This document shows positions 4,644-29,651 of a DNA stretch of 38,350 nt, piece by piece (the stretch's first letter is position 1; each line of letters begins with the position of its first letter). The notes beneath the pieces are model-generated. The model saw nothing but the letters and a program-made list of their open reading frames with translations. It made no database searches and was not told the DNA's origin. Position numbers and translations under genes: made by a program. The DNA is from a virus: positions 1 to 38,350 of the IMG/VR virus record IMGVR_UViG_3300033150_002114; one strand, written 5' to 3'.

Positions 4644-5690
4644 TTAATAATTTGCTGTTGCGTTACAAATTTCTGCTTTGCACAAATAAGCAGATGTAGT
4701 GTTTTCTTTTACAAGTTTAAATTCTAAATCAGTTACAATCGGACCTTTCTCACCAATTTCAGGAATAGGACTTCCTGTTAAATAACAAGTTGGACACTCA
4801 ATATACATTGAATACGTAGTGCTTCCTGCATCTGAACCTATCGTTTCACCAGAGCTCATTATAATTTTCACAGCAATAGATGTTTCATTTAAGAAATTTG
4901 TATAAGCTGTTGTTGTGTCAAATCGCATTGTTAACTTTAAAGTTGCTTCACGAGTAAGTGGTGGGAGTTTTGTTATATTTCTACTTCCTAAACTTCTTAC
5001 ATTTGCATCAGAAGCGAGATTGTTCGTAAGTGCAAATTCAAATCCTATACAACTTGTTGCTGTTAAATTCCCTGTTGAATCGCCTGTTTGAATTGTAATT
5101 CCTGTAAAAAATAACGGTTTTATATCTGAGAAGATAACAGTATGTGATTCTGCTGTATTTGTTGCAGTTTTACCAAGAATATCAGCTGTCATTTTAATCG
5201 GTGCATTAATTTCGCCTGCTATTGTAAGATTATTAATTCTACACCCAACAAAATGAAATTGTGTAGATGTTGTATTTCCTTTTTGAACAGAAATTGTTAA
5301 AGACTTTGTATCAGAACTACCCGCTGAAGACTGATTATTTTCCATATCGCCTAAATTAAGAATATGAGTATAACCTGCTGTTGATGTTCCAGAACTTGTT
5401 ACTGTTCCACCGAAAGCTTGTTTTATTATTTTTACAATTCCATCTTCTGCTATATTTAAATCTACCTCTATATTTCCCTCAACAATTTCGTTGCCTGTAA
5501 AATAACGTGTTATATCACGAGTAGTATTGATTGATTCTAAAAAAATTGTTTCTCTGTTAAGTTTAAGGCTTTCTGAGTTAAACTCAAAATAAGAATTTGC
5601 AGTTGCTTTAACACCGAATGTAGTTTCTTCTCCTATTCCAATCCAAGACGCATAACCTAATCTTACATCATTTCCGCCTAAATTTGCCAT
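4644..5690 (-). CDS. Major tail tube protein
   Basis: 348 aa, with a strong AGAGGAGG site before the ATG at 5690. The start, with YASWIGIGEETTFGVKATA, matches the N-terminal signature of a large family of siphovirus tail tube proteins, followed by beta-rich sequence full of Thr, Ser and Gly (ITRYFTGNEIVEGNIEVDL, INAPIKMTADILGK, VTDLEFKLVKENTTSAY). It polymerises into the hollow non-contractile tube. No sheath gene is visible, which supports a siphovirus-type tail. The many exposed Ser/Thr residues make it a conceivable acceptor for the Maf-like transferase encoded two genes earlier; that is inference only. Confidence 0.88.
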   Translation of the reverse strand: MANLGGNDVRLGYASWIGIGEETTFGVKATANSYFEFNSESLKLNRETIFLESINTTRDITRYFTGNEIVEGNIEVDLNIAEDGIVKIIKQAFGGTVTSSGTSTAGYTHILNLGDMENNQSSAGSSDTKSLTISVQKGNTTSTQFHFVGCRINNLTIAGEINAPIKMTADILGKTATNTAESHTVIFSDIKPLFFTGITIQTGDSTGNLTATSCIGFEFALTNNLASDANVRSLGSRNITKLPPLTREATLKLTMRFDTTTAYTNFLNETSIAVKIIMSSGETIGSDAGSTTYSMYIECPTCYLTGSPIPEIGEKGPIVTDLEFKLVKENTTSAYLCKAEICNATANY

Positions 5691-5948: not shown

Positions 5949-7034
5949 CTAAACTCCTTTTTGAATTATCTGCGGTTTATAATATTTCATTATTTCATTT
6001 TTCTCAATATAATCAATTGTAAGTCCCTTAACATAATTTGCTTTAGCATCTATATCTTTTAATTGCAATAAATCAGAAACATCAATACCCGCTTTAAATA
6101 ATTCAGCATCAGTTAATACTATCTTTTTTAGTTTTTTTGAAAGAATTATACTTTTTTCTTGCTCTGACAACTCGTATAAATTTCGTTTTCTAAATGTTTT
6201 TAATTTCTGTTCTAAATTTGCAGTAGGAACTGCTTTTAAAATTCCATATTCACTACAATTAAATATTTTTACTCTGTGTTGATTTAAAACTTTAATATAA
6301 AAATCAGATAACCATCTTGCTGAAAACAAAAGATTCTGTGATGTAAAAACGAAATTATTCCAATTGTCAATCATCATTATATGCTTCATAAAAAATCTTT
6401 TCTCTGAATCACTAAATGCATAGTAATTCTTTTTGTTATCCCAACAGAAATCATATCCTACAAGCCAATATTCATCATATCCCAAAATTTGTGTTGAAAA
6501 AATAATAGCAGAATTTCCAACATTTGAGCCCGCTGGTATAAATTGATAACAACCAGAAATTTTACTATAAATTTTTTCAGAATGAATATTGTCTTTAAAA
6601 ACAGAAAAACAAACATCGCCTTTCCAATTTTGAGTCCATTTAGGATTAGCATTAATATTTGAAATTAAAATCACATTTTCAGTTTTGTCTATCCATTTTT
6701 CTATCCATCTTTCGTAAGAAATTCCTGCATCTGCTAAAAAGACATAATTGACTTTAATCCCATTGTCTGTTAAATATCCAAAAGCTTTATCAACACACCC
6801 GATGTCTACTCCTTTATTCTGATATTTTTTTATAATTTCAATTTTGTCTTCAAGCGATGCTCCCATCCCTATAAGAAGTAATACCTTACCAATTCCTCTG
6901 AATAATAAATCTTGATGTGATAAACCTCTTTCTCTGTGAATTTTTCCATTAATTTCTGAATGCTTACGCCAGATTGTATCCCATTCACGAAATGCATTCT
7001 TACTTTGTTCTAAAACTTCTTTTGATGTTAACAT
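5949..7034 (-). CDS. DUF115/Maf-like glycosyltransferase
   Basis: 361 aa, AAGGAG before the ATG at 7034. Residues about 49-62 (VLLLIGMGASLED) followed by DIGCVDKAFGYLTDNGIKV and NYVFLADAG match the DUF115 core (MptE-like/Maf): a nucleotide-binding glycine turn, a beta strand ending in D-K-A, then a strand ending in D. A later GSNVGNSAIIFSTQILGYDE and WLVGYDF fit the second conserved block. In flagellated bacteria Maf proteins attach pseudaminic or legionaminic acid to flagellin Ser/Thr. Here the gene lies within the tail operon between the tail terminator and tail tube, so a virion protein is a plausible acceptor (inference). The N- and C-terminal helical parts are unassigned. Confidence 0.75.
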   Translation of the reverse strand: MLTSKEVLEQSKNAFREWDTIWRKHSEINGKIHRERGLSHQDLLFRGIGKVLLLIGMGASLEDKIEIIKKYQNKGVDIGCVDKAFGYLTDNGIKVNYVFLADAGISYERWIEKWIDKTENVILISNINANPKWTQNWKGDVCFSVFKDNIHSEKIYSKISGCYQFIPAGSNVGNSAIIFSTQILGYDEYWLVGYDFCWDNKKNYYAFSDSEKRFFMKHIMMIDNWNNFVFTSQNLLFSARWLSDFYIKVLNQHRVKIFNCSEYGILKAVPTANLEQKLKTFRKRNLYELSEQEKSIILSKKLKKIVLTDAELFKAGIDVSDLLQLKDIDAKANYVKGLTIDYIEKNEIMKYYKPQIIQKGV

Positions 7035-7047: not shown

Positions 7048-7536
7048 TTAATCAGATAAAATCTTGAAATTAATTATAATTTTTGAAATATTATTATAAG
7101 TATCTGCTCGTGTAATTACATTGTAATCAACTGCTATGTCTTCTATGTAATCAACTGTATTTGAAAGTGTTATTTTATTTCTTAATAATTTTTGAATATT
7201 TTCTGATAGTCTAATTATTTCTGTATCAGCTGATTCAGCCCCAGCAGGTTTTTCAAGCATTGTAACTGCAATAATATTAATTGTTCCTGAAACATCTCTT
7301 TTTGCAGAATTTCCTAATTGTGCATTCTCTTCTCTTATACTGTCTAATTCAACGAAAACGCAAGGATAATAATTCTTAGGAATTGTTTTATGCTCATATA
7401 AATTTGAAACACCTCTATAAATTTTAACTACTCTGCGTTCAAGATTAGCTGAAATATCATAGTCTGATGTCGTAGTATTATTTTTATCAAGTAAATTTTT
7501 AACAGAATTAAGAATGTTTATTGCTGATAATGCCAT
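7048..7536 (-). CDS. Tail terminator / tail completion-like protein
   Basis: 162 aa. The ATG at 7536 overlaps the stop of the preceding gene (TAATG). The pattern is a start with short helix, central strands (YYPCVFVELDSIREE, SGTINIIAVTMLEK), an acidic helix (TEIIRLSENIQKLLRN), and a terminal strand ISKIIINFKIL. This fold pattern and its position after the gpG-like gene and before the tube gene fit the protein that caps the tail and joins it to the head. The assignment is by order and shape, not a diagnostic motif. Confidence 0.6.
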   Translation of the reverse strand: MALSAINILNSVKNLLDKNNTTTSDYDISANLERRVVKIYRGVSNLYEHKTIPKNYYPCVFVELDSIREENAQLGNSAKRDVSGTINIIAVTMLEKPAGAESADTEIIRLSENIQKLLRNKITLSNTVDYIEDIAVDYNVITRADTYNNISKIIINFKILSD

Positions 7537-8476: not shown

Positions 8477-8489
8477 TTCAAAAACCTAA

Positions 8490-8842: not shown

Positions 8843-9775
8843 TTAAGATTGTGTCACAGATTTAAATAGATATGCACAAGCTGTTGCTACTGCTTTAGGA
8901 ACAAATTTAGTTGTTACTTCAATCCAGTCGCAGTCTGTTTCATCATCATACCATTTCTTGACAGTATAAGGTTTTCCATAACGCTGACCACGAAGCATTA
9001 CAGCTGCAGTAATCTTCTTGTGTCCAGGGTTAGGATTAAAGTATGCGATTAGACAATCGCTACCCCAGATTGAAGTTATATCTTGTGATTCACCTTCTTT
9101 GTTTGCGTCATATATCGCTGTTCCTATAAACACTTTCTCTAAATCAAATAGAGCTGAAAGCAAGTCTTCTGTGATAATCGCCCTATCCGTATACTGAATT
9201 CTGCCATATACATTTGAATTTTCTTTAAGAGCTTCAAGAACAGATATTCCCATCACAGCAGTGTTCGGTCTTTTGCCTGAACTTTGAATTATCTTTACAG
9301 TCGCAGAAAGAACATTCTGAATAGGTGCTGATGTAGATGTGTTATATTTCCAGCTTGTCACTGTATTAAGAGTTGCGTAATTAGAAAATGTGGTTGTTGT
9401 AAAAAGAAGTTTTGCAGTTTCATATTCTTCTCTTAATTTGATTTTATCTGTTAAATATTCAGTTGTGTCTGCATCCAGATTAATCGGTGCATCAGTATTA
9501 TCTCTATCATCGTCTGAGATAGCATCTTTTAAGCTATGTTTCTGAAGTACGTAAGAGCTTGTTGACATTTCCCAGGTTATCTGATTTGCAGGTGCATAAT
9601 TTGCTCGTAAAGTTTCAGGAAGTCTGAAATCTGTTGCATATACATAATATTTATCTGTATCGTGTTTTACAGGAACATCTTTAAGAACTTTTCCTGCGAT
9701 ATATTCAGCATTTGTATATTTAACTGACAAATTTGTCAGTGCAGCTGATATTCGTTTCATACCTTGTCTTGGCAT
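8843..9775 (-). CDS. Major capsid protein
   Basis: 310 aa, with a strong AAGGAGGTGA before the ATG at 9775. The protein has the pattern of one phage capsid family: an N-terminal SVKYTNAEYIAGKVLKDVPV, a central DAISDDDRDNTD segment, TAVMGISVLEALKENSNVYG (the 'v-m-G-x-x-v-x-x-a-L-x-x-n-p' helix), ITEDLLSALFDLEKVFIGTA, and a C-terminal beta strand DDETDCDWIEVTTKF. It follows the decoration protein and protease/scaffold and is followed by a hairpin, as is common for capsid genes. Confidence 0.88.
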   Translation of the reverse strand: MPRQGMKRISAALTNLSVKYTNAEYIAGKVLKDVPVKHDTDKYYVYATDFRLPETLRANYAPANQITWEMSTSSYVLQKHSLKDAISDDDRDNTDAPINLDADTTEYLTDKIKLREEYETAKLLFTTTTFSNYATLNTVTSWKYNTSTSAPIQNVLSATVKIIQSSGKRPNTAVMGISVLEALKENSNVYGRIQYTDRAIITEDLLSALFDLEKVFIGTAIYDANKEGESQDITSIWGSDCLIAYFNPNPGHKKITAAVMLRGQRYGKPYTVKKWYDDETDCDWIEVTTKFVPKAVATACAYLFKSVTQS

Positions 9776-10252: not shown

Positions 10253-10269
10253 CGCTTTCACCTCCTTAG

Positions 10270-12096: not shown

Positions 12097-12110
12097 TTTA
12101 TTATACCTCC

Positions 12111-14306: not shown

Positions 14307-14312
14307 TAACTT

Positions 14313-14343: not shown

Positions 14344-14368
14344 TTTTCTCAATATGGCATCTATATAT

Positions 14369-14397: not shown

Positions 14398-14402
14398 GAA
14401 GT

Positions 14403-15356
14403 TTATAGTATAGAATTTAAAAAATCATCTATTTTCTTTTCAATTTCTCTTTTCTCTCTTTTTACTTTTTTTATCCATTTTTTCTGAATATCCCAAGCTT
14501 TTAAATAATCAGTTTCTCTTACTTTTTTATATAAATCTTTTTTATCTCTTACTATAAAATCTGAAATATCAATTCCATATTTATCAAAAGTATTTTTACA
14601 ATTAATATCAAAAAACTGAACTACTTTATATGTTAAAGCTTCATAAAATCTATCAGCAGGAAAATTATAATGAGTATGAGTATATTCGTCTTCTATATAA
14701 AGACTATATTTAAATAGCCTAAATTTTGATTTGATATTCCATTTAAAAGCAGGAATTATTTTTAAATCATTTTCTAATAATTCTTTAAATTTTCTAATTT
14801 TACGTTGTGAAGATATAGATAAGTAAATGTTTTTGTCAATATATTTTTTAAAATAATCAATCCTACCTCTTCTGAAAGTTCCATAATAACATATATCATA
14901 TTTCTTTTCAAATTCATATTTTCTATTATATTCTTTATATACTAAAACATTGACATTTAATCTTATTACATTTTTAGAATAGTTTATTAGACGATGATAT
15001 CCTTCAAAATTACAAATAAAATAATCAATCGGTCTTTCTTTCCAAATTTTTATAAACTTACCTTGTTCTTGTAAATTGTATTCATTAAAAAACCTAATAA
15101 TTTTAATATTAGAATTATTCTCTATACATTTTTTAATAAACATTGTTTTTACTTCTATATTTTTTAACAATAAAAAACTATAAGGAATAATTAAAATATC
15201 AATTTTTCTATCCCAAAATTTTTTTAACTCAAATATTTCTTGTATTACTATAAATCCATATTTTTTCATTAAAAATTTTACAAACCTTTCGTATGCTGAT
15301 ATTCCTTTTTTACTTAAAGGTCTTAATGATAAAATTACCTTTGTAATATTATCCAT
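14403..15356 (-). CDS. Glycosyltransferase-like protein (GT-B-like C-terminus)
   Basis: 317 aa from the ATG at 15356, which overlaps the ParB-like gene by eight bases; an upstream TTG frame has no better support. The region YDICYYGTFRRGRIDYFKKY, near residues 165-185, looks like the start of a GT-B C-terminal lobe. NFPADRFYEALTYKVVQFFD near 245-265 resembles the 'R-x-Y-E-A-L-x-x-G-x-x' donor-binding block of group 1 glycosyltransferases. The N-terminal half is less typical. A sugar-transfer role is inferred; the acceptor is unknown. It lies between ParB-like and portal genes, an unusual place for such an enzyme. Confidence 0.55.
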   Translation of the reverse strand: MDNITKVILSLRPLSKKGISAYERFVKFLMKKYGFIVIQEIFELKKFWDRKIDILIIPYSFLLLKNIEVKTMFIKKCIENNSNIKIIRFFNEYNLQEQGKFIKIWKERPIDYFICNFEGYHRLINYSKNVIRLNVNVLVYKEYNRKYEFEKKYDICYYGTFRRGRIDYFKKYIDKNIYLSISSQRKIRKFKELLENDLKIIPAFKWNIKSKFRLFKYSLYIEDEYTHTHYNFPADRFYEALTYKVVQFFDINCKNTFDKYGIDISDFIVRDKKDLYKKVRETDYLKAWDIQKKWIKKVKREKREIEKKIDDFLNSIL

Positions 15357-15972
15357 TTCCTTTATCTTTCTCTTGTTTCTCAAAAATTTCTATAAAAGTT
15401 CTATATTTAATAGAAGGTTTTGGTAAATTTAATAATTTCATTATTTTTTCTTGCTCTTGTTTAGAAGAACATTTAATTATTACAGAATATTGTATTTGCA
15501 ATTTATTAATATCAATTAATTCTATTTCATCATTATTATAAAAAGAATTAACAAAAAAATTAAAATCTATTTCAGGCAAATCAACTTCGTTAATTATTTC
15601 GTCAACTTTTATGTTTAATGTTTCAATAAATTCATATAATCCATCATCTGTTATCTTTCCATATCGTGAATTAATTAACAACAATATTTTCTTTGCTTCT
15701 TTTTTGTCTTTTGCTTGAATCTCAACAACAGGTATTTTATCTATCGTATAGCCTGATTCTAATAGCCTTTTTACAACAAACAAACGCTGATGTCCGTCTA
15801 AAATATAATTGCGCCAGACAAAAACAGGGATTCTAAACCCGTATTTCAAGATTGATTTTTTCAATTTTTCAAAATTTTCTTTTGAAAGTTCTTTTAAATT
15901 TCCTTGAAATTCAAGCAATTCGTTAATGTCAATATACTTCGTTCCTTTACATTTGATTTCAATTTTTTTCAT
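15349..15972 (-). CDS. ParB-like nuclease-domain protein
   Basis: 207 aa. Its ATG at 15972 overlaps the terminase stop (TAATG), with a GAGGTGAAG site. Residues 12-75 form a ParB/Srx-like domain: KLKKSILKYGFRIPVFVWRN, then ILDGHQRLFVVKRL (D59, G60, H61, Q62, R63), the nucleotide-binding motif. ParB-like proteins in phages often sit next to terminase or DNA methylase genes; no ParA is present, so plasmid-type segregation is unlikely. Residues beyond 110 are unassigned. Coupling to packaging is inferred from the overlap with terminase. Confidence 0.75.
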   Translation of the reverse strand: MKKIEIKCKGTKYIDINELLEFQGNLKELSKENFEKLKKSILKYGFRIPVFVWRNYILDGHQRLFVVKRLLESGYTIDKIPVVEIQAKDKKEAKKILLLINSRYGKITDDGLYEFIETLNIKVDEIINEVDLPEIDFNFFVNSFYNNDEIELIDINKLQIQYSVIIKCSSKQEQEKIMKLLNLPKPSIKYRTFIEIFEKQEKDKGNG

Positions 15973-17501
15973 TAAAACTTCACCTCATCATTAAACATTC
16001 TTGCAGACAAGCGCTCTTCTCCTATATTGTCAAATTCAGTAGTTATTATATCAAATTTACTTAAAGCTATGCCCCACAAACATAACACAAAAGCATCTGC
16101 TTCATCAGGAGATTTTGCTCCTGTTCTTTTCTTATAATCATCTTTGCTCTCAATTTTGAATTTTCCTTTGTTTGTAAATTTATATTTGCGATTACATAAT
16201 TCTGCTATTAATGTGCCTTCATCTTCTATTCTTATCTTTTTATCTTCTAGCATATTCTTTGCATTAAAATATAGTTCTGTTATAATATCATCATATTCAC
16301 TTTCGTGATAAGCTTTTTCTGCAAAGTTAATAGGTATAATATTTACATCTTTATAATTTTCATTATTTGCTATAAACTCAAATAAATTATCTGTTACGCC
16401 CCCGCCTAACCCTGTATCGTCAATAACTATTATTTTAAAATTTTGCTGTGTTATAAGTGCAATAATCTGATTTGTTGTATATACTAAATTTTTCTTTGCA
16501 TATTTTCGCTTATAAATTTGTCTTCCGTTTTCATATCCTATCATTACAGTATAATCTGTACCGTATCGTGCTACATCTACCCCTAAAATTTTGTGTGTCT
16601 TTAAATTCGGTTCTATATATTTACATTTTTCTACTACTGTATAAGAAATAATTGTATCTTCAGCAATTTCAGGAAACTCTCCCAATACACGAGCCTGAAA
16701 AATCGGTGATTCTATACCCCACTCTTCAGCCCTTTCAATTACCCAGCGAACTGTTGTTAAAGACGGATTGACTATTTTCATTTTAGATAATTCACTTGCC
16801 CTAACTGTTTTTTCTAATAATAATAACTCTTTTATATCTTCTAAAGATGTTACATTATTTGCTTTAAAATTCGGGGAATCAAATATTGACATTGTTATTT
16901 TTTTAACATCAGATTTCTGAAACATCTGATAAAAACTTCCCTGTGTTGAAATAGGATTCCCTATTCCTAAAAATCGTACATTTGCTGACGTCATTAATGC
17001 TTCTTTAATTTTCCATAATTTTTCATTCACACCAGCTGCTTCGTCAAAAACTACTAGTAAATTAGGGCTATGAAATCCTGTCAATCTTTTTGCTTCATCT
17101 TCATTTTCAATCTTTGGTGATATTCCGATTGCAAAATGATTATCATCAATTTTTATCTGTGTTGTTAAACATTTACCACCAAGCGGAAATAATGAATTTT
17201 TCCAGCTACTTGTTATTTCTGCCCAGAGGAGTTTTTCTACTTGTATCCACGACGGCGCAGTTGTAAGCACTATAGAAGGAACATGTGTATAAAGAAACCA
17301 CAAAACTACATCTTTTGCACTAAATGTTTTTCCTACTCCATGACAAGACTTAACTATTGTGTTACGATTATCTCGTACGCTTTCAATTATCTCAACTTGT
17401 TTTCCCCATCGTTTTTTTCTATCAAGTATAGTATATAAAAAAAATAACGGCTCTTGCTGGAATCTTTTTATATTTAAATTATTTATTATATTATTTTTCA
17501 T
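15972..17501 (-). CDS. terL: Terminase large subunit
   Basis: 509 aa from the ATG at 17501, which overlaps the small subunit by 11 bases; a longer frame starts with TTG at 17546 but lacks better support. Walker A SCHGVGKTF (52-60) and Walker B LLVVFDEA (about 148-155) mark the packaging ATPase. The C-terminal RNase H-like nuclease is intact: GVDVARYGTDYT (D309), IVIDDTGLGGG (D361/D362), and SPDEADAF (D466/D469). It cuts concatemeric DNA and pumps it into proheads through the portal. Packaging mode is not decided from the sequence. Confidence 0.95.
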   Translation of the reverse strand: MKNNIINNLNIKRFQQEPLFFLYTILDRKKRWGKQVEIIESVRDNRNTIVKSCHGVGKTFSAKDVVLWFLYTHVPSIVLTTAPSWIQVEKLLWAEITSSWKNSLFPLGGKCLTTQIKIDDNHFAIGISPKIENEDEAKRLTGFHSPNLLVVFDEAAGVNEKLWKIKEALMTSANVRFLGIGNPISTQGSFYQMFQKSDVKKITMSIFDSPNFKANNVTSLEDIKELLLLEKTVRASELSKMKIVNPSLTTVRWVIERAEEWGIESPIFQARVLGEFPEIAEDTIISYTVVEKCKYIEPNLKTHKILGVDVARYGTDYTVMIGYENGRQIYKRKYAKKNLVYTTNQIIALITQQNFKIIVIDDTGLGGGVTDNLFEFIANNENYKDVNIIPINFAEKAYHESEYDDIITELYFNAKNMLEDKKIRIEDEGTLIAELCNRKYKFTNKGKFKIESKDDYKKRTGAKSPDEADAFVLCLWGIALSKFDIITTEFDNIGEERLSARMFNDEVKF

Positions 17502-18407: not shown

Positions 18408-18542
18408 TTATCTTTTTTTTATCAAAAAAATTGCGCCCAAAGTTGCAATAGCTATTAACAATAGTTTTCCGTGTTTTTTGACAATTTCTTTGATATCTTG
18501 TAAAACTTCTTCAATTTTCTCAAAAAATTCTTCTGTGTTCAT
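18408..18542 (-). CDS. 44-aa single-span membrane protein
   Basis: The ATG at 18542 overlaps the methyltransferase stop (TAATG), and a strong AAGGAGG stands nine bases upstream. The protein has an acidic amphipathic N-terminus (EEFFEKIEEVLQDIKEIV) and a membrane segment near 26-41 (KLLLIAIATLGAIFLI) ending in KKR. The good start signals make a real gene likely. The layout resembles single-span holin-like or anchoring peptides; function unknown. Confidence 0.65.
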   Translation of the reverse strand: MNTEEFFEKIEEVLQDIKEIVKKHGKLLLIAIATLGAIFLIKKR

Positions 18543-19933
18543 TATTGTTTTCCTCCTTCTTTAAAATTTTTTAACTCAAAATAAGCTAGCTTTTCTATTG
18601 CCGAAGATAGCAATGTTAGATTTATTTCTATACATTTTCTTAAATATTTAATTGCTTTCTCGTAGTTTCTGTAATAATAACCCTCTATTATCGCTAAAAA
18701 ATCATAAATTGACTCGTCGCCAGGTTTTCGTATTTTTAAACTTTCAAATATTTCTTTTGCTTTTTGAATATTCTTTGTTACATATTCAGATTCTAATGTT
18801 TGTGGATTGATTCTATCCCATTGCATATATAATAATGCTAATCGGTGCAAAATTTTATAGTGTTCAGGCATTATTTTTAAAGCATCTTTCAAAATCTGTT
18901 CTGATTTCTCAAAATTTTCTACGTTCTCTTTTGCAGATACAAGCATTAAATATGCGTCCGGATATTTAGGATAAACTTTTATCGCTTTCTCTAAATTCTT
19001 GATTTGCTGTTCGTAAGGTAAATTTCTGTTTCCAAACGCAAGATTTATTGCTTCTCTTTGCAAATTTAATATTTTAATAATTTCGTTCGGTTTCTGTTTT
19101 AAATGCTTTGTGTTTGGTTTTTTAGAATTGCTTTTCTGTGCAAGAATTGTATAGCCATACATTTCGTATTTATCTATTTTAACAATTTTAAATCCACATC
19201 TATTTAAAAATATTTCAAAATTTTCTCTATTCCAACAATTCACGTGATTCGGATGATATAAATTTTCAAAATCTGTTGTTTGTTGACCTGATGATTCATC
19301 TAAAATATCAAAAAACACAGGAATTGAAATATATAAATATCCATCATCTTTAAGAAACTGCTTTATTTTTTCTAACTCTTTATCAGGATTCTGAATATGT
19401 TCTAAAACGTGATAATAAGAAATAAAATCAAACTGCTCTGCAAAATCTACAATGTCTTTTGCTACATTTAATCCATATTCGTATTTTGCAAACGCTAAAA
19501 ATTTTTCACAGTATTCTGTAAGATATAAATTGCTACGTGGAGTCATAAGATATTTTGCAACCCAATCCAAAAATTGACCTTGCGCCCCGCCAATGTCTAC
19601 TATTTTAATATTGTCTCCTTCTTTATGATATAATTGCTCTAATATATCTTTTAGAAATGCTTTGTGATATTCATTCTTACGATTGCCTATTATAATATTC
19701 CCGATTGTAATTTTTTGACGTTGCATTTCATATTTTTTCTGGATTAAATTTTCTGGTAAATAATCATAAGTCACAAATCCGCAATTCATACAAATTTTGA
19801 AATTAAAAGGATAATCATAAATCGTTCCTTGATTTTCCCAATATTTTTTGTCTCTTAAATAATCTAAATCTTTCCAATATTCTGTTTCACATACAGGACA
19901 TTTTTTTAGTTCAATTATTTCAATAGTTGACAT
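18542..19933 (-). CDS. Zinc-binding SAM methyltransferase with C-terminal TPR-like repeats
   Basis: 463 aa, ATG at 19933 with AGGAG. Residues 10-52 carry two cysteine pairs (C12/C15, C48/C51) like the N-terminal zinc site of sugar C-methyltransferases. Residues 111-125 hold the SAM motif VDIGGAQGQFL, and YYHVLEHIQNPDKELEKI near 173-190 is a typical motif of class I enzymes. From about 285 to 460 are helical repeats with TPR character (YPKYPDAYLMLVSAKENVE, MPEHYKILHRLALLYMQWD). Placement beside the NeuB-like and sugar-nucleotide genes suggests it methylates a sugar or glycan (inference). Confidence 0.75.
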   Translation of the reverse strand: MSTIEIIELKKCPVCETEYWKDLDYLRDKKYWENQGTIYDYPFNFKICMNCGFVTYDYLPENLIQKKYEMQRQKITIGNIIIGNRKNEYHKAFLKDILEQLYHKEGDNIKIVDIGGAQGQFLDWVAKYLMTPRSNLYLTEYCEKFLAFAKYEYGLNVAKDIVDFAEQFDFISYYHVLEHIQNPDKELEKIKQFLKDDGYLYISIPVFFDILDESSGQQTTDFENLYHPNHVNCWNRENFEIFLNRCGFKIVKIDKYEMYGYTILAQKSNSKKPNTKHLKQKPNEIIKILNLQREAINLAFGNRNLPYEQQIKNLEKAIKVYPKYPDAYLMLVSAKENVENFEKSEQILKDALKIMPEHYKILHRLALLYMQWDRINPQTLESEYVTKNIQKAKEIFESLKIRKPGDESIYDFLAIIEGYYYRNYEKAIKYLRKCIEINLTLLSSAIEKLAYFELKNFKEGGKQ

Positions 19934-19942
19934 TATCTGCTC

Positions 19943-20096
19943 CTATTTTAAAATTTTTAATATTACTAAAATCGCAATAATATTCATTATCACAATAAAA
20001 ACGGTTCCTACTATTTGATATTTGTTCTTTACTCCAGTCAAAACAAAAATTAGTGTCAAAATTCCTAACCAAATACTACTTATTACTGTAAACACT
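19943..20096 (-). pseudogene. Frame-disrupted two-span membrane ORF
   Basis: A GTG at 20096 with an AAGGAT site nine bases upstream begins a hydrophobic peptide (VISSIWLGILTLIFV). At two neighbouring five-base homopolymer runs (20040-20044 and 20046-20050) the frame turns polar. Removing one base there would instead continue as a second hydrophobic segment (VGTVFIVIMNIIAILVIL) and stop at 19943, giving about 50 aa with two membrane spans. As written, an intact but odd 58-residue frame runs to 19920. This could be a true frameshift, programmed slippage or an assembly error. It overlaps the end of the NeuB-like gene. Confidence 0.5.
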
Positions 20097-20798
20097 TCTT
20101 TTTATCCTTTTTAATATTTGCTCTTCTACTCTAATTTTTTTAACCATTTGCGCAAACTCATTAGGTTCAAGTGAGTGTTCTTTGTCAAATACAAGGTTTT
20201 TGCGCTTTAAACAAAAATGTTTTTCTATTACACAAGCTCCCATTTTTACAGCTACTAAACAATCATCATAGCCAATTAGATGTGATGAGTAACCTGCTTT
20301 ACCATATTTCTTTTTTAATTTCAAAATCTCATTTGCTACCATATAAAAGCTCGGGTATTCAGCATCACAAGCAAGAAAAGTAACATTTTTCTGTTTTAAA
20401 AGATAAGACATTTTTTTAGGAAACGCATAGCCTGTTGAAATAAAAATTGGTATTTTCTTATCTACAAACATCAAAATAGCTTCGGTTATATAAATTGCTC
20501 GGGACCCGATTTTAAGAAAATCAAACTGCGGTATTAAATCAAAATCAAATATAGATAATCCAAAATCTATCTTATATCCTTTCTTAATTTTCCATTCATA
20601 TAAGTTATTATATTGTTTCATTGATAACATCATTTTTTCTCTCTTTTTTGCTTCTTTTTTCGGAAAAATGCGATATGGGTCATAATATTGAAACTTCACA
20701 GCATCAGCTCCGCAAATATAAGCTTTCTCAATCAATTCTTTTGCTCGCCTAACACTCCCTAAATGCGCTAATCCTGCTTCTGCTATTATATATACCAA
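20076..20798 (-). CDS. NeuB/PseI/LegI-like nonulosonic acid synthase, short form
   Basis: 240 aa from a TTG at 20798 with GGAG eight bases upstream; an in-frame stop just before it excludes a longer start. Family features: IIAEAGLAHLGS at 4-15, GADAVKFQ at 30-37, LKIGSR at 95-100, STGYA at 121-125, LACDAEYPS at 142-150, GYSSH with H173, IEKHF with H194, and DKEHSLEPNEF at 205-215. Both metal-binding histidines are present. The family condenses PEP with an aldose to make sialic, pseudaminic or legionaminic acid. The C-terminal SAF (antifreeze-like) domain of full-length enzymes (about 340 aa) is absent. Confidence 0.85.
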   Translation of the reverse strand: MVYIIAEAGLAHLGSVRRAKELIEKAYICGADAVKFQYYDPYRIFPKKEAKKREKMMLSMKQYNNLYEWKIKKGYKIDFGLSIFDFDLIPQFDFLKIGSRAIYITEAILMFVDKKIPIFISTGYAFPKKMSYLLKQKNVTFLACDAEYPSFYMVANEILKLKKKYGKAGYSSHLIGYDDCLVAVKMGACVIEKHFCLKRKNLVFDKEHSLEPNEFAQMVKKIRVEEQILKRIKRSVYSNK

Positions 20799-20863
20799 CT
20801 CTACTACTCCATAGTTTTATTTCTGTTCTTAAACTATTCTATTCTCATCTTCTCTAGTCTGCT

Positions 20864-21043
20864 CTACTTTATCTCTTTCACAGGTAAAATTTTCTCAAAT
20901 AACTTACACCCTGCTATACTTTCTATGTTTACATTATATGGCATATCTGCATCAACTTTTTTAACCTCAAATATTTTCACTACCAAATGCAAAAATAGTA
21001 AAATCGCAATGATTATCAAGATAATTTTTGTGTATTTATCCAT
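20864..21043 (-). CDS. Small single-span membrane protein
   Basis: 59 aa from the ATG at 21043, with GAGAGGTAAAG upstream; an in-frame TTG at 21061 is less likely. One membrane segment (about 5-25, TKIILIIIAILLFLHLVVKI) is followed by a charged domain with one Cys. Function unknown. It lies in the sugar-modification block between the NeuB-like gene and the sugar-nucleotide gene. Confidence 0.6.
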   Translation of the reverse strand: MDKYTKIILIIIAILLFLHLVVKIFEVKKVDADMPYNVNIESIAGCKLFEKILPVKEIK

Positions 21044-21050
21044 AACTACT

Positions 21051-21239
21051 TTACCTCTCAAAATATCCTTTTATTATTTTTTTAATAATTTTATAATATA
21101 TTGTCCATATATTTATAACATTATATTTTCCATTGCAAAAAGATATAATTGGAACTAAAAATAATCCTAAAATACCTCTAAATATCAAAATTACTAAATA
21201 GGGAATAAAAAATAATATTCTTGCAATTATTAATTCCAC
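21051..21239 (-). CDS. Small membrane protein
   Basis: 62 aa from a GTG at 21239; the site AAGTGAGGTAAAG is well placed, supporting this start. A long hydrophobic stretch spans residues 4-35 (IIARILFFIPYLVILIFRGI), with a basic C-terminal tail (YKIIKKIIKGYFER). Function unknown. It overlaps the leader of the following small membrane gene. Confidence 0.55.
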   Translation of the reverse strand: MELIIARILFFIPYLVILIFRGILGLFLVPIISFCNGKYNVINIWTIYYKIIKKIIKGYFER

Positions 21240-21250
21240 TATTCTTTACC

Positions 21251-21598
21251 TCACTTCTTTAAAATAGGTATTACAATTATAGGCTTTGTTGCTCTGTTTC
21301 TTAATTTTTTATACCACATCTGAAAATCTATGCTTTTTGTATCTATTCCACGATTTATTTGTAATTCCCGAATTATCGCTGTTTCTTTGCGTTCAATATC
21401 TAAAAGTCTTGGGTCTTCTTTATAGCTTTTTATCATTTTTGTTGAATATTCATTTAAATCTTTTCGTAACTGCGAATATAATTTCTTTTTCACATCGTAT
21501 AGTCCTATCAACAATTTTTTCAGTGTGCTAACAGAAGTCGGTGGTCTAATCGCTTTCACAAATTCATCGTAACTCATTGTTAAAGCAAATTTTGCCAT
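21251..21598 (-). CDS. Helical protein of unknown function
   Basis: 115 aa, ATG at 21598 with only a weak AGAAG site just after the previous stop, suggesting translational coupling. The sequence is basic and helical with a coiled-coil-like middle (LYSQLRKDLNEYSTKMIKSY, then RLLDIERKETAIIRELQI). No motif is recognised. Its place directly after the cytidylyltransferase-glycosyltransferase gene makes a partner role possible but unproven. Confidence 0.6.
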   Translation of the reverse strand: MAKFALTMSYDEFVKAIRPPTSVSTLKKLLIGLYDVKKKLYSQLRKDLNEYSTKMIKSYKEDPRLLDIERKETAIIRELQINRGIDTKSIDFQMWYKKLRNRATKPIIVIPILKK

Positions 21599-21600
21599 TT

Positions 21601-22998
21601 TTATACTTCTACTATTGTTGTTGTAAAATGAGATTTTACAATCTCTTTATTAATAATTGCTGTATTAATTTTCTTTTTTTCTTTTAATCGTTCTTTTTGT
21701 GCTGTTTTTTGTTTTTCGTGCCTTCTATAATTCCAACAAACTTCATCTAAATAACCAATTTTACCTACTTTTGTAAATTGATTATAAAAATAAATCCCGT
21801 CTAAATATTTTACATTTTCTTTATATTTTACTTCATTCACTATTCTTTTATTTAATAACGCACAACCAGGATGCCAAGTATTTTGATGAATTTCTTTTAA
21901 TTTTTTTCCTTCCTTATTAATTATATTATATGCAGTTATTACGCCATCAAGATTTTCTAATTCAATATATTCAACCATTTTCTTAACTCCATTTTTCTTT
22001 AAAATATCATCTGCATCTACTCGCATAATATATTTGCCCTGTACAAATTTTAGTGCTTTATTTGATGAGGCTGTAAGCCCAATATTTTCTTTGTTTCTCA
22101 AAAATTTAATTCGTTTTCTTTTTTCATAATCTCTCTCTTCTAAATCTGATAAATACTCTAAAATTTTTATAACAGAATTATCATCAGAACAATCATCTAT
22201 TATAATATATTCCCAGTCATTAAAATCCTGATTTACTACACTTTTAATCGCATCAATTACAAATTCAGATTGATTATAATTACAAGTAAAAAATGAAACT
22301 TTTGGTAATTTGTTAATATTAAGCAAGTATTTATTCTTTTTTAAAAAATTAATAATATCAAGCGTTCCAAAAGGTTCTTTTAAAGCAGAGAAAATTATGC
22401 GCAATAATAATAAATCTTCAGGATAATCAAGTGTAAGCCTAAAAGAATATTGATATTCAAATGGTGGATAGAATTCTTTTATTTTCATACCTGGCAATTT
22501 TACATAATAAGACACAAATTCAATATCTTTAAATCCTAATTTTTCTGCTTGCAATAAACCTTTCTCTAAAGCAGAAAACTTAATAACTTCACCTGCTATC
22601 CCCTCAGGACATCGTCGCATAAATGTATAATCTTGTTTACCTCGTATATGAAAATCTATCTGCTTTTTTAAAAGTGTATAGTCAATCAAAATATCGTCTG
22701 CTGTGATTCTAACAATATGGTCAAATTTTTTCTGAATAGCAATTTGATATAAACGATGCATCGGTGAGTTGTCTTCTCCACGATAAACTTCTACTCCTTT
22801 ATTTTCTGCTATTTTTTCTAAAATATCATTCTCTGAAGATTGCGGAATAGCTAAAATAATAGGATAATCATCAGATACAAGTAAGTGGTCTAATAAAATT
22901 TCAATTGTTTTTTTACCGTTTATCTCTTGTAAAACTTTACGCTCAAGTCTATAAGAATTTACTCGAGCTGTTATTATTATTCCTATATTATTATTCAT
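21601..22998 (-). CDS. Cytidylyltransferase (SpsF/CMP-NulO synthetase-like) fused to GT2 glycosyltransferase
   Basis: 465 aa, ATG at 22998. Residues 1-215 are a sugar-nucleotide cytidylyltransferase of the SpsF type: IIITARVNSYRLERKVL (7-23), YRGEDNSPMHRLYQIA near 72-87, HIVRITADDILID near 94-106, and LTLDYPEDL near 188-196. Residues 232-440 are a GT-A family 2 glycosyltransferase: VSFFTCNYNQSEFVIDAI, YIIIDDCSDD (264-273), NIGLTASSNKAL, and the DxD motif VDADD (327-331). Activation and transfer of the sugar in one chain would channel a CMP-activated sugar. Which sugar is used is inferred from the NeuB-like neighbour. Confidence 0.85.
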   Translation of the reverse strand: MNNNIGIIITARVNSYRLERKVLQEINGKKTIEILLDHLLVSDDYPIILAIPQSSENDILEKIAENKGVEVYRGEDNSPMHRLYQIAIQKKFDHIVRITADDILIDYTLLKKQIDFHIRGKQDYTFMRRCPEGIAGEVIKFSALEKGLLQAEKLGFKDIEFVSYYVKLPGMKIKEFYPPFEYQYSFRLTLDYPEDLLLLRIIFSALKEPFGTLDIINFLKKNKYLLNINKLPKVSFFTCNYNQSEFVIDAIKSVVNQDFNDWEYIIIDDCSDDNSVIKILEYLSDLEERDYEKRKRIKFLRNKENIGLTASSNKALKFVQGKYIMRVDADDILKKNGVKKMVEYIELENLDGVITAYNIINKEGKKLKEIHQNTWHPGCALLNKRIVNEVKYKENVKYLDGIYFYNQFTKVGKIGYLDEVCWNYRRHEKQKTAQKERLKEKKKINTAIINKEIVKSHFTTTIVEV

Positions 22999-23010
22999 AT
23001 ATAATCTCTA

Positions 23011-24099
23011 TTATATTTTTATATGATTTATAACTAAATTTCCATTAATATCTATGTATATATCTTTCATTAAATGAAAACAAATACCGTTTACTTTAAT
23101 TATTTCTTTTACAGGATTTAAATAACCTTGAATTTCAACAATAGTATCTTTATATTTATATTTTCTACAAAAACATTTATTTGTTTTTCGTATACTTATT
23201 GATGTAAATTCATCATCATTTTCTATTTGAGTAAATACATCATAAAAATAGTCTATTTCTTTACTTTTAGAAAAAAATAATCTTGAATTTTGCATAAAAC
23301 AAAATCTTCTAATCTTAAAATTATTATAAAAATAATTAATATATTCTTTTATTTCTTTAATATTATTCATATCTTCTAAGATAATACACATCATTACTAT
23401 TTTTTTATTATATTTTTTTATAAAATTTTTATCTTTTTTCATATCATAAAAAGTACCACAATATTTTTTTTGAATATCATTTTTATAATGACACTTATTA
23501 ATAAGAATAACATTACATATTTTTAAAATATCTTCACTTTTTTTTAATAATAATCCATTTGTAGAAATTGCCCAAAAATCTACTATATTTAATGGGTTTA
23601 TTGTTTTATATAATAATTTAATAAAATCTATATCTAATGTAGGTTCTCCACCAGCTAACATTATTCCGCATTTTCTATTATTTTTTCTTATTTCATTTAT
23701 TGAATTAATTGTATTAAGAATTCTTTTATTTATATCTATTTCTTCGCGTTTTATTGGGTTAACATCTTTTTGAAAACAATAACTGCAATTAAAGTTGCAT
23801 CTATCTGTAACCATATAGTAAAGTAAAGTAATGTCTCTTAATTCAGAACACGATTCTTTAAAAAAACATTTTCCTTTTATTGAAAATTTGTTACTTATTT
23901 TTGTAGGATTAACTATATTCATTTTGTTAACTATTTCTTTTAAATTTCTTTTTTCTTTTTTTAATTTAGTTATTTCTTCTTCTAATTTTTTATTTTTCTC
24001 TTTAAGATAATCATCTTCTTCTTCACGATGGGGAAGTCTTCCTACCCATTGTGAATATGATTTAGCATCGCTACAGCAATCACACATAGAATTTGCCAT
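23011..24099 (-). CDS. Radical SAM protein with Cys-rich N-terminus and coiled coil
   Basis: 362 aa, very strong AAAGGAGG before the ATG at 24099. The Fe-S motif is C101-N-F-N-C105-S-Y-C108. MLAGGEPTLD near 147-156 is the SAM-binding GGE segment, and AISTNGLLL near 176-184 is typical of the family. Residues 1-25 hold a Cys cluster (C6, C8, C9) and a peptide-like segment (KSYSQWVGRLPHREEEDD). Residues 26-60 form a coiled coil. Later cysteines (FCMQ-type, KCFCRKY) may bind another cluster. The substrate is unknown. Neighbouring genes suggest sugar or glycopeptide modification; a peptide-modifying role is the main alternative because of the unusual N-terminus. Confidence 0.8.
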   Translation of the reverse strand: MANSMCDCCSDAKSYSQWVGRLPHREEEDDYLKEKNKKLEEEITKLKKEKRNLKEIVNKMNIVNPTKISNKFSIKGKCFFKESCSELRDITLLYYMVTDRCNFNCSYCFQKDVNPIKREEIDINKRILNTINSINEIRKNNRKCGIMLAGGEPTLDIDFIKLLYKTINPLNIVDFWAISTNGLLLKKSEDILKICNVILINKCHYKNDIQKKYCGTFYDMKKDKNFIKKYNKKIVMMCIILEDMNNIKEIKEYINYFYNNFKIRRFCFMQNSRLFFSKSKEIDYFYDVFTQIENDDEFTSISIRKTNKCFCRKYKYKDTIVEIQGYLNPVKEIIKVNGICFHLMKDIYIDINGNLVINHIKI

Positions 24100-24116
24100 A
24101 ATAATCCTCCTTTATT

Positions 24117-25037
24117 TTATTTATAAGCATCTCGTGATGTGCAAAATTTGCACATCTTGTTTGTAAAGATATTTTTTTTTAAATTTTTTATCAATTCTTT
24201 TCTTTTTTTATTATTCCAAATTGATTTCAAACTTTCTTTTTTAATATTTCCTAAATATAGTTCTTGTGGTTCATTATAAGCTACACAACAAACATAAACA
24301 TTTCCTTCCCACGAAATTACAAGTCTACGTGAAGGATGTCCACAATATTTCCGTTTATTTTTATTAACAATTTTTGTTTTAAATATTTTTTCTTGATTAC
24401 GTTTCATTGCTGGTTTAATATCAAATTTAACATATTTTAAAGACATTTTTTTAAACCATTTCTTAAACTCTTTATTACTTTCTAAATCTTTAATATTTGT
24501 TGTGCGCCGTGAAATTATCAGCTTTGGCATTTTAAAAATTTTTCTTAAATATTCAAGAAAATATAAATTATCAATTACCTTATAAAAATCAGCTTTTTTT
24601 CTTATTTTTTCATAAACATGTTTTCTTGTACTATCAAACGAAACTTTTAATATATCAACCTTTGATGCGATTGTCTCTAAAAAATCAGATGAATAATTTA
24701 ACGTCAAATTCGTATTAATATATATAAAAAATCCTAATGCATAAGCTAAATTTATTGCTTGTAAATATAACGGATATAGTGTAGCTTCTCCACGCCAGTT
24801 AAATTTGACTGATTGCACGCCTAATTCTATTGCTTCTTTTAAAATTTTTTCAACAATCCAAAAATCTATAAACCCATCATCAAAATTTTTATTTCGTCTA
24901 AAACAAAAAGCGCAATCAAGATTACAATACGATGTTAATTCAACATCAATATGAATAGGTGCTTTAAAATTAATCCAATATGCTAAATACCATTTAAGTC
25001 TATATAATAAAAATTTTAATTTTCTTATAATTTTCAT
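24117..25037 (-). CDS. Radical SAM/SPASM protein
   Basis: 306 aa, ATG at 25037. The Fe-S motif is C38-N-L-D-C42-A-F-C45. FNWRGEATLYP near 79-89 takes the place of the usual GGE segment, as in a subgroup that has R-G-E. A C-terminal SPASM-like region has C232, C250/C251 and C296/C299, with GNVYVCCVAYN and LGNIKKESLKSIWN matching that domain's typical pattern. A basic N-terminal helix (RKLKFLLYRLKWYLAY) could associate with membrane. Proteins of this shape occur in bacterial surface-polysaccharide loci and as peptide-modifying enzymes. A sugar role is favoured by context only. Confidence 0.82.
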   Translation of the reverse strand: MKIIRKLKFLLYRLKWYLAYWINFKAPIHIDVELTSYCNLDCAFCFRRNKNFDDGFIDFWIVEKILKEAIELGVQSVKFNWRGEATLYPLYLQAINLAYALGFFIYINTNLTLNYSSDFLETIASKVDILKVSFDSTRKHVYEKIRKKADFYKVIDNLYFLEYLRKIFKMPKLIISRRTTNIKDLESNKEFKKWFKKMSLKYVKFDIKPAMKRNQEKIFKTKIVNKNKRKYCGHPSRRLVISWEGNVYVCCVAYNEPQELYLGNIKKESLKSIWNNKKRKELIKNLKKNIFTNKMCKFCTSRDAYK

Positions 25038-28536: not shown

Positions 28537-28935
28537 ATGAAAATTGAAAAACAACAAGAAATTTTAGAATTTGCGCATATTATTTTACAGCAAAGTTTAC
28601 AAGACTTCAAAGAAAATCCACTTTTAGAATTACCTTATATTTTATCAAAAGACTTCGAATTTTTGTGTGCTGGGCTTGGATATGATGTACAGATTTTTAG
28701 AAACGAATGCAAAAAATATCTTTTATTCTGGCAAAAAAATAATGAATATAGAGAACAAATTTATCAGACTACTTGTTGGCAAATTATATTTCTGTATTTA
28801 TTACAGAAATTATTTTCATATACTTGGACATCTAATAACTACCTCCTTTTCCTCCAGTTCCTTTATATTGTTACTTATCAAAATTTTTGTGGCTCTTGCG
28901 GGAGATTTTATCTCCCGCATTCCCCTCCCTTTTAA
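28537..28935 (+). CDS. First gene of rightward operon, unknown function
   Basis: 132 aa. The start ATG directly follows a strong promoter, and no Shine-Dalgarno site is present. The N-terminal two-thirds are helical (EILEFAHIILQQSLQDFKEN, CKKYLLFWQKNNEYREQIYQ). The C-terminal 45 residues are hydrophobic and aromatic, ending in CGSCGRFYLPHSPP; the DNA there encodes a strong hairpin and a stretch complementary to the next gene's ribosome site. The coding status of the last part is less certain. Function unknown; its position suggests an early regulator or host-takeover protein. Confidence 0.55.
   Translation: MKIEKQQEILEFAHIILQQSLQDFKENPLLELPYILSKDFEFLCAGLGYDVQIFRNECKKYLLFWQKNNEYREQIYQTTCWQIIFLYLLQKLFSYTWTSNNYLLFLQFLYIVTYQNFCGSCGRFYLPHSPPF
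28898..28918 (+). promoter_or_regulatory. Perfect hairpin at the end of the first rightward gene
   Basis: GCGGGAGA and TCTCCCGC form an eight-base stem around a five-base loop. No T tract follows, so it is not a standard intrinsic terminator. It lies between a 28840-28848 segment complementary to the next gene's Shine-Dalgarno and that site, so it could shape the leader or trim the message. Confidence 0.6.
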
Positions 28936-28976
28936 ATGGGGTAATATTTTTAAATAAGGTAATGAAGGAGGTAATA

Positions 28977-29651
28977 ATGAATAAAGAAAGAATTATTGAA
29001 ATATTAAAGAAAGGAAAAATAAATGTTTTTAATAGGTGGCGAAAAATATATAAAATAGATACAATTGACCTTCGTTCTGCTGACCTTCGTTCTGCTGACC
29101 TTTATTATGCTAACCTTTGTTATGCTGACCTTCGTTATGCTGACCTTTATTATGCTGACCTTTGTTATGCTGACCTTCGTTATGCTGACCTTCGTTATGC
29201 TGACCTTCATTATGTTGACCTTCGTTATGCTAACCTTTGTTATGCTAAATATGAAGAACCACTATTTTTACCTGATTTATATTTATTAAAATTACTTCCT
29301 AAAAACATAAAGTTGAAAGCTTGGAAATATCTTATTAATGGTCAATCACCGTATCAATGTTGTGAATATCAAATTGGAAAAACATATGTTTTCAAAAATT
29401 GTGATGACAATGAACAAAATTTATGTGGGGCTGGTGGAAATGTAGCAACGTTAATGTGGTGCTTAAAAGATAATTTATATGCTAATGAATTTATAGAAGT
29501 AGAATTTTATGTAAAAGATATTGTAGCAATTCCTTATAGGACTGATGGGAAATTTAGGGTAAAAAAGTTTAAAGTAATAAGAAAAATAAATAGAAAACAA
29601 GCAATACGACTTTTAAAAAAAGTAATGAATGTTAATTTAAAGGAGGAATAA
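28977..29651 (+). CDS. Pentapeptide-repeat protein with C-terminal phage domain
   Basis: 224 aa from the ATG at 28977, with AAGGAGGT at 28965. Residues 30-89 hold 12 perfect pentapeptide repeats (A-D/N-L-x-x; for example ADLRS, ADLYY, ANLCY), which fold as a right-handed beta helix. After residue 100 comes a domain with LCGAGGNVATLMWCLKDN, FYVKDIVAIPYRTDGKFRVK and VIRKINRKQ, a pattern often found behind pentapeptide repeats in phages. Some pentapeptide proteins mimic DNA; this one is neither clearly acidic nor assigned. The repeat DNA could vary in copy number without loss of frame. Confidence 0.82.
   Translation: MNKERIIEILKKGKINVFNRWRKIYKIDTIDLRSADLRSADLYYANLCYADLRYADLYYADLCYADLRYADLRYADLHYVDLRYANLCYAKYEEPLFLPDLYLLKLLPKNIKLKAWKYLINGQSPYQCCEYQIGKTYVFKNCDDNEQNLCGAGGNVATLMWCLKDNLYANEFIEVEFYVKDIVAIPYRTDGKFRVKKFKVIRKINRKQAIRLLKKVMNVNLKEE
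29064..29243 (+). repeat. Twelve tandem 15-bp repeats encoding pentapeptides
   Basis: Twelve units of the form GCT-GAC-CTT-CGT-TAT, with variation mainly in codons 4 and 5 (CGT, TAT, TGT, CAT). The DNA is much more uniform than protein selection demands, suggesting recent expansion by slippage or recombination. Any gain or loss of a unit keeps the frame. Confidence 0.9.

Follow-up and report, generated by a model that had tools for sequence, protein, structure and literature searches.

A candidate two-part pathway for nonulosonic-acid-type glycosylation of the virion in an uncultured phage

The DNA analysed here, an IMG/VR virus contig of 38,350 bp from an uncultured phage (the window), appears to encode a two-part system in which a CMP-nonulosonic-acid-type pathway is combined with a Maf-like enzyme that would glycosylate virion proteins, probably the tail tube. 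We give this reading a probability of roughly 0.6. Because the window holds both a sugar cassette and a Maf-like gene adjoining the tail-tube gene, the phage most likely sugar-coats its own particle. A preceding sequence-only reading had left the target of the sugar between the virion, the host surface and a DNA or peptide mark, and the comparative evidence now favours the virion. The parts are of known kinds; their combination is a new variant, and no phage NeuB-Maf pathway acting on virions was described in the open-access literature searched.

The virus genes recognised in the window include a Mu-type portal, terminase, tail tube and SSB. The cassette has TerL on one side and SSB on the other, in agreement with its earlier placement between replication and packaging genes, and is oriented like the structural genes. 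The five ORFs first picked out were correctly located, all lie on the minus strand and read without interruption, and Pfam searches upheld the families named for them (NeuB synthase, SpsF and GT2 fusion, Zn/TPR methyltransferase, two radical SAM genes). A promoter scan was uninformative, with 82 sites against 81 expected. When genome collections were searched for a host, the only match came from a Phycisphaerae MAG, in a contig of 4 kb. The genes considered below are these:

4644..5690, minus strand: tail tube protein, candidate acceptor (Phage_tube_2, 2.2e-30)
5949..7034, minus strand: Maf/MptE-like (PF01973) putative glycosyltransferase of the tail module (PF01973, structure, synteny)
7048..7536, minus strand: gene of tail terminator/completion type, just upstream of the Maf-like gene (synteny; function from position)
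8843..9775, minus strand: probable major capsid protein and alternative candidate acceptor (weak Phage_cap_E match, 0.034)
18542..19933, minus strand: methyltransferase bearing an N-terminal motif of four Cys (Zn-like) and a C-terminal TPR (Methyltransf_23, 1.7e-17, plus TPR)
20076..20798, minus strand: NeuB/PseI/LegI-type synthase, barrel only, TTG start (PF03102)
21251..21598, minus strand: small ORF of 115 aa between the fusion and NeuB (no Pfam match)
21601..22998, minus strand: SpsF-like cytidylyltransferase fused to a GT2 glycosyltransferase (CTP_transf_3 and Glycos_transf_2)
23011..24099, minus strand: second radical SAM protein, variable cassette slot (Radical_SAM, 3.3e-9)
24117..25037, minus strand: radical SAM/SPASM protein, whose gene opens the cassette (Radical_SAM, 4e-10; SPASM, 2.8e-14)

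The synthase matches PF03102 over profile positions 1-238 of 241 (E 7.6e-34, 117.7 bits against a cut-off of 22.1). Canonical NeuB synthases carry a C-terminal SAF (antifreeze-like) domain, which is absent here, the 240-aa ORF stopping after the TIM barrel. The residues of the PEP/Mn site are retained (E7, K35, Q37, K96, S99, S121, Y148, S171, H173, H194 and D205), and Ala is found at the position of meningococcal E134, a sugar-site Glu, in what we take to be the correct matching to the meningococcal numbering. The claim that key residues are intact throughout the block needs to be qualified for the synthase, on this point and on its equivalog scores. Its best PDB matches are a sialic acid synthetase (6ncs) and a pseudaminic acid synthase (8h2c). 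Scores of 119 bits against the NCBIfam NeuB_NnaB equivalog (TIGR03569, N-acetylneuraminate synthase; cut-off 400) and 108 bits against PseI (TIGR03586, pseudaminate synthase; cut-off 340) lie too far under the cut-offs to name the exact sugar. The window showed no recognisable gene for a dehydratase, aminotransferase, acetyltransferase or 2-epimerase; the phage would accordingly depend on its host for the precursor, and the idea that it makes a sialic-acid-like sugar unaided is not borne out.

The next enzyme of the pathway is found in the fusion protein, whose first half matches PF02348 (E 1.8e-14, 54.5 bits against a cut-off of 22.6); profile matches therefore support the expected pairing of synthase and cytidylyltransferase in one phage. 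The second half matches PF00535 (E 2.9e-28, 99.3 bits). Full-length homologs with 46% and 30% identity occur in G100 and G104, respectively, and R12, R17, K21, D101, DYPED and the DXD motif (DAD) are invariant among them. The fusion had been proposed to both activate and transfer the sugar. However, the GT2 half is closest to UDP-sugar transferases (TuaG, EpsE, SpsA and chondroitin synthase), not to nonulosonic acid transferases, and we rejected it as the nonulosonic acid transferase.

Among the remaining cassette genes, those for the radical SAM proteins and the methyltransferase might serve in tailoring. The radical SAM/SPASM protein (motif CNLDCAFC) has homologs of 29-31% identity in G104/L236, G100/L245 and L032, each adjoining a cytidylyltransferase. 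The second radical SAM protein (motif CNFNCSYC) has no homolog in any of the retrieved loci, and in G104 its slot is taken by a UDP-glucose/GDP-mannose-type dehydrogenase. A viperin/ddhCTP role in defence or counter-defence was discarded for the radical SAM genes, which score 50.6 and 38.2 bits with NF038283 against a curated cut-off of 180. The methyltransferase has homologs in G102 (37% identity), G100 (29%) and G104 (30%), with all four Cys invariant, and its PDB matches include the sugar C-methyltransferases MtmC and TcaB9. The slot of the 115-aa ORF holds in G104 a 124-aa ORF with no detectable similarity to it.

A gene that was overlooked earlier, since it lies outside the block first delimited, is the Maf-like ORF at 5949..7034. 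Its 361-aa product matches PF01973 (E 1.6e-15, 57.7 bits against a cut-off of 34.6), a family that also takes in pterin pyrophosphokinases. The best PDB match, by sequence and by structure, is Maf (5mu5), to which the predicted structure (mean pLDDT 79.9, core above 90, C-terminus of low confidence) aligns with Z 23.5 and an rmsd of 3.0 over 245 residues. The next structural matches are archaeal HPPK/MptE (Z 17) and the CMP-sialic-acid transferases ST8SiaIII and CstI/II (Z about 10). Maf has three domains, including a Rossmann-like N domain and a C-terminal helical bundle, whereas the phage protein comprises the central Maf domain and N-terminal helices only and aligns just with the middle portion of 5mu5 (237-516). 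On sequence and predicted structure, this putative enzyme is a better candidate for the transferase than the SpsF-GT2 fusion. An ORF at 14403-15383 that looked GT-like by eye was also considered and rejected, having no family match and a poor single-sequence model (pLDDT 49).

In relatives with 38-55% identity, the Maf-like gene holds exactly the same position. The gene is flanked by the terminator-type gene and the tail tube gene in L233, L234, L236, L237 and L085, while in L232 the tube side alone is visible. The tail tube gene is the next large gene downstream in the window and in all relatives; in the window, Ser and Thr make up 23% of its product. Among the proteins compared with L085, the Maf-like protein is the most conserved (47% identity), followed by the MCP (46%, the head gene at the equivalent position to 8843..9775), TerL (40%), tube (39%) and portal (36%). 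Thus the arrangement expected of a phage virion glycosylation system, a putative transferase gene conserved within the structural module, was found. What is more, relatives that bear cassette genes too have this gene at its fixed place in the tail module. G104 has the same cassette order as the window (rSAM-SPASM, variable gene, SpsF-GT2, small ORF, NeuB, Zn-MTase-TPR). In G100 we saw the SpsF-GT2, rSAM and MTase genes and no NeuB, on a contig that ends just past SpsF-GT2.

Phages of other capsid families carry NeuB plus a PF01973 protein beside the MCP: next to it in L002 (phrog_9953) and L055 (phrog_334), directly after it in L015 (phrog_1328), and as two copies before it in L041 (phrog_4523/371). 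PF01973 was present in 22 of 50 NeuB-positive viral records and in 0 of 50 random ones (p 1e-8), an association that comes partly from short (~245 aa) transferases in large-phage surface-glycan clusters, a different context; at 70% NeuB identity the 50 records form 25 clusters, nine of which have PF01973. PF02348 exceeded its cut-off in 43 of the 50 NeuB-positive records against 0 of the 50 random ones (p 3e-21). Searches of annotated phages gave no match with the PF01973 proteins and only three records with NeuB, one of them a bacterial contig. A wide PF01973 alignment proved too diverse for scanning viral contigs. It is possible, at a little under even odds, that several unrelated capsid families independently joined a NeuB/CMP-sugar pathway and a Maf-fold transferase beside a capsid or tail-tube gene.

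The observed gene content and folds, the conserved gene position and conserved order of the cassette, and the association with NeuB in a range of phages suggest the following model. Its first part would be the late-strand cassette, which would produce an activated sugar: the NeuB-type synthase would join PEP and a host-supplied amino-hexose into a nonulosonic-acid-type 2-keto-3-deoxy sugar, the SpsF domain would couple this sugar to CMP, tailoring by the radical SAM proteins and TPR methyltransferase might precede or follow transfer, and the GT2 half of the fusion would perhaps lengthen the glycan. The second part would be the Maf-fold glycosyltransferase of the tail module. Maf enzymes transfer CMP-nonulosonic acids onto Ser/Thr and accept varied donors (PMC11339370). 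Like Maf on flagellin, the phage enzyme would move the sugar from CMP to Ser/Thr of a virion subunit in the cytoplasm, before assembly, with the tail tube as the most likely acceptor and the capsid protein as the other candidate. The sugar, linkage, acceptor, order of steps and benefit to the phage are what we infer from the genes.

Alternatively, the cassette could act on the host surface, remodelling a capsule, S-layer or LPS-like glycan in the course of infection or in lysogeny, for instance to keep out other phages, with the tail-module PF01973 gene unrelated to it. Phage NeuB genes do occur in large surface-glycan clusters (the cyanophage-type record L004 and the large-phage records L092, L094 and L095), and the GT2 half resembles TuaG/EpsE-type polysaccharide transferases. 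We nevertheless consider this unlikely. The window proteins searched included no recognisable polymerase, flippase, lipid-carrier transferase or integrase, the cassette shares its orientation with the structural genes, the Maf-like gene keeps its place in the tail module of relatives with cassette genes, and NeuB lies among head genes in other phages (L015, L002, L032).

It is likewise doubtful that the virion is modified with a different kind of sugar, the fusion and Maf-like proteins using, for instance, host CMP-Kdo and NeuB making another 2-keto-3-deoxy acid or only supplementing the host. Kdo is accepted by a C. botulinum Maf (PMC11339370), and this possibility would fit the subthreshold equivalog scores, the missing SAF domain and the lack of a visible NeuB in G100, although that contig ends just past SpsF-GT2. 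On the other hand, the solved structures that match the synthase best are those of nonulosonic acid synthases, and it retains the PEP/Mn residues. There is only a small chance that the PF01973 gene encodes a pyrophosphokinase, of the MptE pterin type or another, or else an assembly factor, rather than a glycosyltransferase: the family is named after MptE and the archaeal enzyme is the second-best structural match, but Maf matches clearly better, sialyltransferases match too, folate or methanopterin genes were not recognised, and PF01973 is strongly associated with NeuB and CMP-sugar genes. Hypermodification of phage DNA with a sugar or aminosugar is very improbable. Phages are known to glycosylate DNA (PMC12619734), and tailoring of bases could be a task for the radical SAM and methyltransferase genes, but the window has no recognised enzyme for forming DNA bases (hydroxymethylase, TET-like or DpdA-like), the conserved transferase partner sits with the tail genes, and the methyltransferase, which bears a TPR domain, has sugar C-methyltransferases among its matches.

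The proposed two-part system has a close parallel in the Maf flagellin glycosylation islands of Campylobacter, Aeromonas, Clostridium and Magnetospirillum, which combine, like the phage, a NeuB-type synthase, a CMP-sugar synthetase, a methyltransferase and a PF01973 transferase, and serve a tubular protein polymer. In contrast to these islands, no flagellin gene or precursor enzyme was recognised in the window, the transferase lacks the other two Maf domains, and the radical SAM genes and SpsF-GT2 fusion are on the phage side. The Bacillus subtilis sps legionaminic acid pathway (PMC7439481) also pairs a NeuB-family synthase (SpsE) with the cytidylyltransferase SpsF, and its sugar serves a particle surface, the spore crust; counterparts of SpsC, SpsD, SpsG and SpsM were not recognised in the window, where SpsF is joined to a GT2 domain and NeuB is shorter. 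In Caulobacter FlmG (TPR plus glycosyltransferase, PMC7591256), the TPR recruits the enzyme to filament subunits. By analogy the TPR of the phage protein, joined instead to a methyltransferase, might bind virion proteins. Barrel-only NeuB adjoining an SpsF-like cytidylyltransferase and glycosyltransferases is also seen in phage surface-glycan clusters (for example Marine virus AG-345-L05, L004), but those are large multi-gene polysaccharide sets, whereas the window's cassette is compact and paired with a putative transferase in the tail module.

Phage-encoded virion glycosylation is known in few phages, and the literature searched describes transferases, not phage-made donor sugars. In the mycobacteriophages Che8, Corndog and Myrna, phage-encoded glycosyltransferases are reported to modify capsid and tail tube (Freeman 2023, cited in PMC12363180 and PMC12619734); the system proposed here would differ in its predicted Maf/sialyltransferase-fold enzyme and its phage-borne donor synthesis and activation. 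If the model is correct, phages would be able to supply their own sialic-acid-like coat, which could alter the charge and stability of the particle, how it adheres to host glycans and how antibodies recognise it, and phage proteins now labelled only 'MptE-like' would be explained. If, beyond this, several unrelated capsid families did acquire the combination independently, nonulosonic-acid-type glycosylation would be a post-translational modification of virions that is widespread and has gone unrecognised, and a viral counterpart to the chemistry of flagellin glycosylation.

Tailed-phage genes (a Mu-type portal, terminase, tail tube, SSB and YopX-like) are recognised in the 38,350-bp IMG/VR window, in which the sequence-only reading had placed five leftward genes for making, activating and transferring a nonulosonic acid. 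All five lie where it put them, uninterrupted, and Pfam profile searches gave strong scores throughout: NeuB, CTP_transf_3 with GT2, Methyltransf_23 with TPR, and a pair of radical SAM proteins, of which one also carries SPASM. The finding holds up, and is stronger than that reading supposed, the reason being a Maf-like gene outside its coordinates that it did not see.

5949-7034, minus strand: Maf-like gene (PF01973)
18542-19933, minus strand: methyltransferase (Methyltransf_23) with TPR
20076-20798, minus strand: NeuB-type synthase
21251-21598: small ORF
21601-22998, minus strand: SpsF (PF02348)-GT2 fusion
23011-24099, minus strand: second radical SAM protein
24117-25037, minus strand: radical SAM protein with SPASM

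The product of 5949-7034 matches PF01973 at 57.7 bits (cut-off 34.6), and its top PDB sequence match is 5mu5, a Maf flagellin glycosyltransferase. With 11 homologs as input, AlphaFold2 gave a model (mean pLDDT 79.9) that aligns best with 5mu5 (Z 23.5 over 245 residues), then with archaeal MptE/HPPK (Z 17) and then with the CMP-sialic-acid transferases ST8SiaIII, CstI and CstII (Z ~10). Maf enzymes attach CMP-activated nonulosonic acids to flagellin Ser/Thr, and the Pfam01973 domain is their central domain, with a likeness to CstII (PMC11339370). The phage protein shares this domain but lacks the two other domains of Maf, and is therefore Maf-like rather than a flagellin Maf.

Homologs 38-55% identical occur in related loci (L and G numbers denote viral loci or contigs fetched for comparison): L233, L234, L236, L237, L232 and L085/L235. 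Wherever both sides are visible, and small ORFs aside, the gene is flanked by homologs of 7048-7536 (terminator-type) and 4644-5690 (tail tube); the L232 contig shows the tube side only. Between the window and L085 the Maf-like protein is the most conserved of all proteins compared, capsid and terminase included. Given this fixed position and conservation, the gene behaves like a core structural-module gene, not a recent passenger. Window 232-17034 (16.8 kb) is 100% identical to IMG/VR contig 3300033149_004384, so that the phage was either assembled twice or belongs to a stable population. Between the portal and a ParB-like gene, a 326-aa ORF (14403-15383) looks GT-B/CgeB-like by eye; profile searches matched it to no family and its single-sequence model was poor. 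A PF00805 pentapeptide-repeat protein (28887-29651) is encoded close to where the rightward run of early-type genes begins.

The window NeuB covers the whole barrel profile and stops at the barrel's end, and thus lacks the SAF domain found in canonical synthases. It retains the PEP/Mn catalytic residues, as do six other phage NeuBs apart from a Glu-to-Asp change in L002 and two positions in G104 that are ambiguous; at the position equivalent to meningococcal E134, none of these seven proteins retains Glu. Since it falls far below both the sialate and pseudaminate synthase equivalog cut-offs, we name its product only as nonulosonic-acid-type. The viral NeuBs fetched (L005-L061) are mostly 268-295 aa, about barrel-only size, which may reflect selection, as the search was seeded with proteins of such size.

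The cassette order is that of G104/L236, whose Maf-like protein is just 38% identical to that of the window: rSAM-SPASM, nucleotide-sugar dehydrogenase, SpsF-GT2 fusion, small ORF, NeuB (223 aa, barrel only) and Zn-MTase-TPR, the variable slot being filled in the window by the second radical SAM gene. The small ORFs of the two share a slot and no detectable sequence similarity. G100 has SpsF-GT2 (46%), rSAM-SPASM and MTase-TPR; no NeuB was seen on this contig, which stops ~390 bases past SpsF-GT2. G102 carries MTase-TPR, a NeuA-like protein and rSAM-SPASM a little ahead of TerL; a TnpB-like protein (by eye; L247 56-1306) adjoins this cassette. An N-terminal four-Cys motif is invariant among the cassette methyltransferases; sugar C-methyltransferases, MtmC and TcaB9, are among the PDB matches of the window protein. 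Its second radical SAM gene makes the window differ from G104 and is probably a recent arrival; a homolog of its product was found in none of the fetched relatives. This gene lies in an 18% GC stretch and encodes an odd Cys-rich, coiled-coil N-terminus (MANSMCDCCSDAKS...).

A NeuB-seeded search found 340 viral stretches, of which 80 loci were fetched; L002 was found separately. L002, L015, L041 and L055 each combine NeuB with a PF01973 gene close to that for the major capsid protein (MCP), and their capsid proteins fall into different PHROG families; chosen from the strongest PF01973 matches, these cases show recurrence, not frequency. The PF01973 gene lies downstream of MCP and a small virion protein in L002, immediately follows MCP in L015 (8099-9565), is present as two tandem paralogs immediately before a Mu-like MCP gene in L041 (3750-5605), and lies three genes past MCP in L055, to which G009 is similar. 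The L015 protein has a C-terminal methyltransferase-like extension (by eye), a fusion that hints at coupled transfer and methylation. The L041 contig also bears SpsF, a B12-radical SAM protein, a methyltransferase and NeuB. In L032, NeuB lies ahead of an SU10-type portal, with rSAM-SPASM and SpsF beside TerL on the same contig.

PF01973 was detected in 22 of 50 NeuB-bearing records (11 over cut-off) versus none of 50 viral contigs drawn at random by means of an arbitrary 15-mer (p 1e-8); some of the 22 belong to a different context, as short transferases within large-phage surface-glycan clusters. For PF02348 the counts were 43/50 versus 0/50 over cut-off (p 3e-21). The 50 NeuB records collapse to 25 clusters at 70% NeuB identity, 9 of them with PF01973. 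A search of 50,697 annotated phage records gave only three NeuB matches, of which one is bacterial, and no match to the PF01973 proteins.

Most likely, the phage would make a nonulosonic-acid-type sugar from a host amino-hexose and PEP; CTP would then activate it, radical SAM and methyltransferase steps would tailor it, and the Maf-like enzyme would move it, in the cytoplasm, onto a virion subunit. Which subunit accepts the sugar, in what order the steps run and what GT2 does are all inferred. By adjacency, the favoured candidate acceptor is the tail tube in the window family and the capsid protein in other phage families. The TPR domain may bring the methyltransferase to the virion subunit, in the way that the TPR of FlmG binds flagellin (PMC7591256). 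There is precedent in mycobacteriophages, where phages glycosylate capsid and tail tube proteins (cited in PMC12363180 and PMC12619734). Every part is of a known kind; for their combination, the open-access papers searched gave no earlier report.
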